Positions 29,828 through 34,920 of a stretch of DNA of 64,000 bases are shown piece after piece. Source of the stretch: Longimicrobium sp. (GTDB lineage Bacteria; Gemmatimonadota; Gemmatimonadetes; Longimicrobiales; Longimicrobiaceae); contig NZ_DATIND010000121.1 of NCBI RefSeq assembly GCF_035474595.1, forward strand, positions 1 to 64,000, read 5' to 3'. The translations under genes and the position numbers were made by a program. The notes beneath the pieces were generated by a model. It was given only the letters and a program-made list of their open reading frames with translations, was not told the origin of the DNA and made no database searches. Each line of letters starts with the position of its first letter. Positions within the stretch are counted from its first letter, which is position 1.

Positions 29828-32297
<2,470 letters not shown>

Positions 32298-32305
32298 CAA
32301 GGCGT
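32298..32305. repeat. IS1-type target-site duplication, right
   Basis: CAAGGCGT directly after the right inverted repeat end ACTACC; matches 31095-31102. Confidence 0.88.
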
Positions 32306-32530
32306 GGCGGGACACTTCCGGCATCCGCCGCCGCGCGTCCGCGGCGGACGAGACGCCTGGTTGCGATGCAGAAGGTTCGAGTTCATTCATCCTCCTGCCG
32401 TGTCCCTTTCCGTGCCCCTCGTCCGACTTTAGCTTGGCGGGGCCAGCCGTGCATCGTGAGAAGTCCGGCAGGAAAGGCGCGCCACACCCGGCGAACGGCA
32501 CGGCAACCCACCCATCGACAGGAGATCGGG

Positions 32531-32905
32531 ATGAAGAAGCTGAAGCTGGAGGTCGAGGAGCTCGCGGTGGAGTCGTTCGCGACGGCCTCGCAGGCGCAGG
32601 GCCTGGGGACGGTGCGCGGACACGGCACCTTTCGCGAAAACACCTGCCAGGCGGTGAACAGCTGCGGTCCGCACACCTGCGGAAATGCGTACTGCGTGAT
32701 CGAGACCGACAGCCCGGACTGCGGCTTTGGCGGCACCGGCACCTGCGGCACGGGCGGCGCCTCGGCGAACTGCGCCACGAACAACGGCGCGCTGAGCTGT
32801 GTGGGGTGCACCACGCAGGATTACACGGTCAACCTGGCCAACGACACCTGCGGCGCCTGCCAGAGCTTCGGCAGCGACGCCCCGCAGCGCTGCCCCTGCC
32901 CCTGA
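32531..32905 (+). CDS. Cysteine-rich RiPP-precursor-like peptide
   Basis: 124 residues. The N-terminus MKKLKLEVEELAVESFAT resembles leader peptides of pinensin-type lanthipeptides (KLxLxxxxLxVESF). The rest is a Gly/Ser/Thr/Asn-rich segment with 13 cysteines at 39, 45, 50, 55, 64, 72, 81, 90, 93, 107, 110, 121 and 123, ending CPCP. ATG 32531 follows CAGGAGATCGGG, a strong ribosome site. No lanthipeptide synthetase, protease or exporter lies within 30 kb on either side, so any modifying enzymes would act in trans. A non-modified secreted Cys-rich protein is the alternative. Confidence 0.72.
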   Translation: MKKLKLEVEELAVESFATASQAQGLGTVRGHGTFRENTCQAVNSCGPHTCGNAYCVIETDSPDCGFGGTGTCGTGGASANCATNNGALSCVGCTTQDYTVNLANDTCGACQSFGSDAPQRCPCP

Positions 32906-33320: not shown

Positions 33321-33977
33321 GTGAGTCCTTCGAGCCACACGATCAGGAAAGCGGTCCGCCATGCGCTGGGGTTCCGGCGCGGCTACGAAGATCCCGAGCG
33401 CTCGCCCGGCCGGCGCAAGTCGGACCACGAGCCCATGCGCGGCTGGATCCCCACGCTCTGCATCGCGCTGGGCGTGGCGCTGCTGGACTGGACGACCAAG
33501 TTCCTCATCGCCATGAACATCCCCCTGGACGACCTGCGCGAGGTGATCCCGGGGAAGCTGGCCTTCTGGCACGTGCGCAACCCCGCGATGGTGCTGGGGC
33601 TGTGGGACAACTTTCCCATCGCCACGCGCAAGATCATCGCGGTGGTGGCGGCGGTGCTGGGGGCCATCGTGCTGCTGCAGATCCTGGGGCGCGGGCACCG
33701 CTTTCCGCGGCAGCACCGGGCGTGGGCGTGGGTGTTCATCGGGCTGGTGCTGGGCGGAATGCTGGGCAACCTGGGCGAGCGCGTGGTGCACTGGGGCGTG
33801 ACGGACTACATCTCGTTCCGCTGGGGCGAGTACTGGCTGCCGCCCGGCAACGTGGCCGACATCGCGCTCTTCCTGTCCATGCCGCTCGCCATCCCCGTGA
33901 TCGTCTTCGAGATGATCGGCCGGTCGCGGCGCGGAAAGGTGCCGCTCGGCAACCCCGTGGGCGCGACGGGGGATTGA
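33321..33977 (+). CDS. Signal peptidase II-like membrane protein
   Basis: About 218 residues with four hydrophobic helices after a 38-residue basic N-terminal extension. The lipoprotein signal peptidase layout is recognisable: LDWTTKFLI in helix 1, HVRNPAMVLGL, then GNLGERVVHWGVTDYISF and PPGNVADIALFLS. The two Asp of VTD and VAD match the catalytic pair. The usual NxGaAFG and DR motifs are altered (NPAMVLG; ER), so it is a divergent LspA. GTG 33321 is a tentative start; ATG 33435 would remove the extension. Confidence 0.75.
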   Translation: MSPSSHTIRKAVRHALGFRRGYEDPERSPGRRKSDHEPMRGWIPTLCIALGVALLDWTTKFLIAMNIPLDDLREVIPGKLAFWHVRNPAMVLGLWDNFPIATRKIIAVVAAVLGAIVLLQILGRGHRFPRQHRAWAWVFIGLVLGGMLGNLGERVVHWGVTDYISFRWGEYWLPPGNVADIALFLSMPLAIPVIVFEMIGRSRRGKVPLGNPVGATGD

Positions 33978-34101: not shown

Positions 34102-34842
34102 ATGACGCTCCGCCGGATCTCCGCCGCGCTGATGCTTGCGCTCGCGACGCCGCACGCCTCGGCCGCGCAGGCGCACGCACCGCGCGAGTGGGCGCTGTGG
34201 GCGGGCGCGGCGGCGCTCTTCGCCGGCTCGGTGCTGCTGGACCGGACCATCGAGAGCGGGGTTCCGGACGGCGGCGGAACGCGGTACGAGTGGGCGTCGG
34301 ACCGGCTGAACTACCTGGGCCGACCGCAGTACGCAGTCGTTGCGCTCGCCGGGACGTACGCGGCCGGGCGACTGGCGCACGCGCCGAAGACCGCGCAGGC
34401 GGCGGAGCACGTGGCCATCGCGTTGCTCGCGTCGGGCGTGGCGAACGGCGCGGTGAAGTTCGCCGCCGGCCGCGAGCGCCCGTCGTTCACCGACGATCCG
34501 CACCGCTTCAAGCCGTTCAGCCGGCAGGACCGGTGGCAGTCCTTTCCGTCCGGCCACGCGGTCGTGGCGTTCTCGCTCGCCGCGTCCATCTCCGAGGAGG
34601 CGCGGAAGCCGTGGGTGACGGCGCTGGCGTACGGCACCGCGTCGCTGGTGGGCTGGTCGCGCGTGTACGAGGACCGGCACTGGACCAGCGACGTGGTGGG
34701 CGGCGGGCTGATCGGCATTGCGGCGAGCCGCTACACCATCCACCGCCTCCACGCCCATCGCGCGCGGGGCGATTCGGCGGCGGCCGCGGGCGTCGCCATC
34801 TCCCCCCTTCCCGGCGGGGTGATGGTGAGCATCGCGCGCTGA
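34102..34842 (+). CDS. PAP2-family phosphatase, exported
   Basis: 246 residues: a signal peptide ending near AHASA-AQA, then membrane helices and the three PAP2 phosphatase blocks KFAAGRERP, PSGHAVVAFSLA and SRVYEDRHWTSDVVGG with the catalytic His residues. It probably dephosphorylates a lipid phosphate (undecaprenyl-PP or phosphatidate class). Its stop codon overlaps the first unit of a 4 x 20-bp tandem repeat. Confidence 0.88.
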   Translation: MTLRRISAALMLALATPHASAAQAHAPREWALWAGAAALFAGSVLLDRTIESGVPDGGGTRYEWASDRLNYLGRPQYAVVALAGTYAAGRLAHAPKTAQAAEHVAIALLASGVANGAVKFAAGRERPSFTDDPHRFKPFSRQDRWQSFPSGHAVVAFSLAASISEEARKPWVTALAYGTASLVGWSRVYEDRHWTSDVVGGGLIGIAASRYTIHRLHAHRARGDSAAAAGVAISPLPGGVMVSIAR

Positions 34843-34920
34843 TCCCCATCTCCCGAAACTGATCCCCATCTCCCGAAACTGATCTCCATCTCCCGAAACT
34901 GATCCCCATCTCCCGAAACG
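34841..34920. repeat. Tandem repeat, four 20-bp units
   Basis: GATCCCCATCTCCCGAAACT is repeated four times without gaps, with one C-to-T change in unit 3 and T to G at the last base. It begins inside the PAP2 stop codon and runs to the terminator hairpin. Confidence 0.95.

Follow-up and report, generated by a model that had tools for sequence, protein, structure and literature searches.

A 124-aa protein with 13 Cys, encoded at 32531..32905 on the forward strand of the window (the whole 64,000-nucleotide stretch of Longimicrobium sp. DNA analysed here), is probably the precursor of an unusually long class I (LanB/LanC-type) lanthipeptide, matured by enzymes acting in trans and drawn from a dispersed library of such precursors. 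With somewhat less assurance, we favour the broader reading that this is a genome-wide combinatorial class I library, in which one leader-guided LanB/LanC machine, with its leader-binding domain fused to the cyclase, serves at least 177 dispersed, hypervariable precursors that include near-100-residue cores with 13-19 Cys.

The precursor gene and its locus

The gene is preceded by a ribosome-binding site with an AGGAG (ACAGGAGATC; 32518..32527, +), and a purine signal is strong at -11 to -6, the ribosome-site region, across the family of genes that share its leader. The conserved leader MKKLKLEVEELAVESFATASQAQGLGTVRGH (32531..32623, +) scores 60.5 bits against the family model; it begins MKKLKLEVEELAVESFATA, also given as MKKLKLEVEELAVESF, and ends ...GTVRG, the family consensus being MxKLxLxxxxLxVESFxT...GTVxG. 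The core region (32624..32902, +; about 93-94 aa) contains all 13 Cys and 18 Ser/Thr and is the longest among the 157 family members compared. Lanthipeptide cores usually have ~20-40 residues, a range that this core, at about 94 residues with 13 Cys, far exceeds. A Pfam AcetDehyd-dimer match to the protein (E 0.16) is attributed to chance.

The earlier note had read the gene as RiPP-precursor-like, with 13 Cys and a pinensin-like leader, and this reading is borne out by the open reading frame, by three orthologues and by the leader, albeit below the cutoff of the pinensin model. Pinensin is the sole model that the leader matches, and it does not qualify as a Nif11-type leader. Against NF038180 (leader_pinensin), the whole protein scores 15.9 bits and the leader alone 20.1. 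Membership of NF038180 is not claimed for the gene, because the curated cutoff of 24 is missed; one of nine sampled paralogues passes it (27.2 bits). No Sec-type hydrophobic segment was found in the protein (top 15-residue Kyte-Doolittle mean 0.57), so there is no evidence of Sec secretion, a check that the earlier note had proposed.

The neighbours of the gene are tgt (queuine tRNA-ribosyltransferase; 29828..30940, -) upstream, a signal peptidase II (lspA)-like gene (33330..33977, +) downstream and a PAP2 gene, with no RiPP enzyme among them. The absence of a synthetase remarked on earlier is true locally, but a LanB/LanC/ABC operon lies elsewhere in the genome. Just past the PAP2 gene, at 34840-34920, are ~4 tandem copies of TGATCCCCATCTCCCGAAAC, one of them altered.

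Full-length orthologues of the protein occur in three other genomes, with identities of 70% (G008), 60% (G014) and 50% (G009). In G008, the orthologue sits at the same place between tgt and lspA, where two tandem lspA-like genes are found (L155:6883-8452) as against one in the window; neither a tgt nor an lspA-like neighbour was found beside the orthologues in G014 or G009. Twelve of the 13 Cys are invariant across the four species' sequences and most Ser/Thr-Cys dyads are retained. Every pairwise comparison of the four gives dN<dS, with ratios of about 0.4-0.7. In at least four species, the gene has been retained by purifying selection.

An IS1-like insertion sequence (31103..32297, -), with a frameshifted transposase of which the zinc-ribbon N-terminal part is present, lies between tgt and the precursor gene. 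The earlier note had placed an IS beside the gene, and this is real: the 8-bp target-site duplication CAAGGCGT is found on both sides (31095..31102 and 32298..32305), and the tgt-precursor-lspA locus of G008 lacks the element. Its further suggestion of a changed upstream region is no more than weakly supported: the element ends ~230 bp from the gene, so that it interrupts neither the ribosome site nor the DNA just before it. The upstream DNA adjoining the gene does differ from that in G008, but the difference is not assignable to the IS. It is this proximity that could suggest a decayed, unexpressed precursor silenced by the IS; with the reading frame and ribosome site intact, and dN<dS in all pairs with three species, such decay is very unlikely.

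Paralogues and maturation enzymes across genomes

The gene had been called an orphan, which does not hold, as it has at least 176 paralogues in the same genome (G000; 6.57 Mb in 163 contigs). The leader-bearing genes number at least 177 in all, 157 in 1.2 Mb of loci and 20 elsewhere, and occur singly or in arrays. As a query against the genome, the window protein gives 120 matches at E<=1, and the leader model gives at least 150 scored candidates, all with E<1e-6; a reversed decoy set gave a single match of 9.4 bits. The cores are hypervariable: 157 of them fall into 87 clusters without detectable mutual similarity, 66 of which hold one core only. Their composition is 15% Cys, 12% Thr and 7% Ser, with a median of 6 Cys per core and a maximum of 19. 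Paralogues on contigs C91 (L180) and C80 (L192) have 18 and 19 Cys, respectively, in ~110 aa, with repeated TCxxTC/SCxxTC units. A common promoter or mobile cassette around the precursors was sought and rejected, as the ribosome site was the sole upstream motif in common, and no more than three pairs of upstream regions were similar, each over a short length. Many scattered precursors with one leader and hypervariable cores are thus accompanied by very few enzymes, which is the pattern of a dispersed library.

The genome search for RiPP enzymes and paralogous leaders that the earlier note had recommended found both, and its proposal of a trans-modified precursor is supported, the chemistry itself being deduced from the genes. 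On contig C23, the end portion of a LanB gene (glutamylation part) is followed by a free-standing LanB C-domain (PF14028), LanC, six precursors, an ABC exporter, HlyD and, last, an S8 protease. These six precursors have the same leader as the window gene and adjoin the LanB/LanC genes; the window gene itself, between tgt and lspA, does not. LanB domain PF04738 is present on C23 and on C4, and LanC domain PF05147 is present in the genome, so that the class I set of LanB glutamylation domain, LanB elimination domain and LanC is found genome-wide and not in the window. The LanB genes at the ends of C4 and C23 are 77% identical in their overlap, an assembly break at similar genes. Both are cut by the contig ends, and the enzyme count is therefore uncertain.

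The precursors and LanB coincide exactly among 21 genomes of the bacterial family, 10 of which have both and 11 neither, with no mismatch (Fisher p=2.8e-6, for related genomes that are not fully independent). Precursor numbers are high in several: 149 in G001 and at least 150, 86, 72 and 50 in G008, G009, G014 and G015, respectively. The same operon, whole or in part, is found in these five and in G007, and it includes precursors in G008, G009, G014 and G015. In a 150-genome sample of the phylum, leader matches occurred in two genomes, both of this genus. A search with a LanC alignment gave 15 loci, and a search with a single LanC gave none. Two MAGs of Ignavibacteria type (L164 and L165, labelled Melioribacter and Ignavibacteriales) have a related operon with the same leader, which suggests that the system crosses phyla; LanC relatives also occur in Acidobacteria and Bacteroidota.

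Two other enzyme families were considered as the common modifying enzyme and rejected. The genome encodes two LanM proteins (on C25 and C136), and one family precursor lies ~4.5 kb from the LanM of C25, so that class II modification by one of these, rather than by LanB/LanC, might be imagined. It is extremely unlikely, since no LanM was found in G008 with its 150 or more precursors, and G003 has LanM and no precursor. Heterocyclization of Ser/Thr-Cys dyads to azol(in)es by YcaO deserves even less credence: there are two YcaO genes on C136, and no enrichment in the cores is stronger than that of Ser/Thr immediately preceding Cys (see below), but YcaO is absent from G001, G008, G009 and G014 despite 72 to 150+ precursors in each, and so does not associate with the family. 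The LanM and two YcaO genes of C136 are side by side (L142:297-7945, -) with no pinensin-like leader nearby, possibly a lanthipeptide/azoline hybrid cluster; the same combination is found in G015 (C7).

Ser/Thr-Cys spacing and the proposed maturation

Ser/Thr residues are enriched before Cys at position -1 (z 9.3) and position -5 (z 8.0) in the 87 non-redundant core clusters, and less so at other positions. With the Cys and the -1 residue fixed, the enrichment at -5 remains (z = 6.0). In 38 further clusters, taken independently from other species, z is 6.4 at -1 and 8.2 at -5, the latter becoming 5.5 once Cys and the -1 residue are held constant. The -5 signature would be expected as the trace of selection by a cyclase preferring a Ser/Thr-x4-Cys ring, although it could be read in other ways. 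The window core does not follow this pattern: Ser/Thr stands at -1 for six of its 13 Cys and at -6 for four, and most of its Cys lack Ser/Thr at -5. With this bias towards -1 and -6, the core may have a ring pattern that is partial or unlike that of the rest of the family.

This departure, together with the great length of the core and the strict retention of its Cys, could also fit a secreted Cys-rich peptide, unmodified or disulphide-bonded, whose leader is merely a common export-like signal. We consider this unlikely, because the same leader is found on precursors inside LanB/LanC operons and the leader and LanB co-occur without exception in the family. Furthermore, 12 of the 18 core Ser/Thr positions are kept in the four species, as against 2 of 13 Gly and none of nine Ala.

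The LanB/LanC reading would require the enzymes to find substrates scattered over the genome, and the LanC protein offers a candidate for how. It has invariant WCHG and CHG motifs at the zinc site, it scores best against the LanM model, and it bears a C-terminal extension of 238 aa. In a structure predicted for the relative from G015 (L162), the extension folds at pLDDT 86. This model matches TglHI (8hi7) with E 8e-7 and has weak matches (E 0.07-0.9, target TM 0.67-0.76) to leader-bound TbiB1, PqqD and a leader-bound lasso B1 protein. The extension is thus predicted to be a leader-binding (RRE-like) domain. If so, its fusion to the cyclase would explain how one operon could serve genes genome-wide.

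The proposed pathway is as follows. One LanB/LanB-C/LanC operon (C23), with a second LanB (C4), would serve the shared-leader precursors, and the RRE-like domain at the LanC C-terminus would recognize their common leader. The LanB pair would glutamylate Ser/Thr and then eliminate to give dehydro residues, to which LanC would link Cys in thioether rings, preferably at the Ser/Thr-x4-Cys spacing. The ABC/HlyD transporter of the operon would export the product, and its S8 protease would remove the leader. Each of these steps, as well as any biological role of the products, is deduced from the gene content and the predicted fold.

Relation to known systems

Dispersed lanthipeptide production in which one enzyme acts on many substrates is established in marine cyanobacteria, with class II LanM. 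In the prochlorosins and synechococsins (ProcM and SyncM), as here, dispersed precursors share a conserved leader, have hypervariable cores and are served by very few enzymes. Those systems, however, use class II LanM and Nif11-type leaders and have few Cys per core, whereas here the enzymes are a split LanB and a LanC of class I, the leader is of another kind and the genes are more than twice as many. For the class II cases, PMC9872173 counts 29 substrates in Prochlorococcus MIT9313 and as many as 79 in a single Synechococcus. The Longimicrobium set is about twice the largest that we found reported (79), and it would be the largest library known to us and the first of LanB/LanC type.

The literature found on lanthipeptides of Longimicrobium and Gemmatimonadota gives cluster counts only and holds no description of the precursor library, most subscription journals lying outside the search; for Longimicrobium terrae, the genome paper goes no further than a list of lanthipeptide clusters. 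Precursor mining in PMC7268733 was limited by distance from the LanC gene and, by that paper's own statement on prochlorosins, misses dispersed precursors. Cluster-based mining would likewise miss most of the precursor genes described here, because they are far from any enzyme.

The one-enzyme, many-substrate arrangement would here be seen in a class I system that has more numerous substrates, scope for much denser cross-linking, a clear statistical signature of ring size and a candidate leader-binding module. It would also provide a large natural set of substrates from which to learn the rules of class I cyclases. If the proposed chemistry is right, few known lanthipeptides would be as heavily cross-linked as the near-100-residue cores with 13-19 Cys.

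Among the closest known systems are also the pinensins and pinensin-type clusters of Bacteroidota (Chitinophaga, and the Chryseobacterium and Elizabethkingia loci L173-L175), which have in common with the present system the leader type (NF038180), a split LanB and a LanC resembling LanM cyclases. The LanCs of the group containing pinensin resemble LanM cyclase domains (PMC7268733), in agreement with the best score of the LanC described here being to the LanM model. In the pinensin-type loci examined, however, the precursor is near the enzymes, whereas here at least 177 are dispersed, with up to 19 Cys, and the window gene falls short of the NF038180 cutoff. The leader-binding modules of TglHI, TbiB1 and PqqD have the fold predicted for the LanC extension; here, that module would be fused to the LanC cyclase itself, with leader binding as its predicted function.
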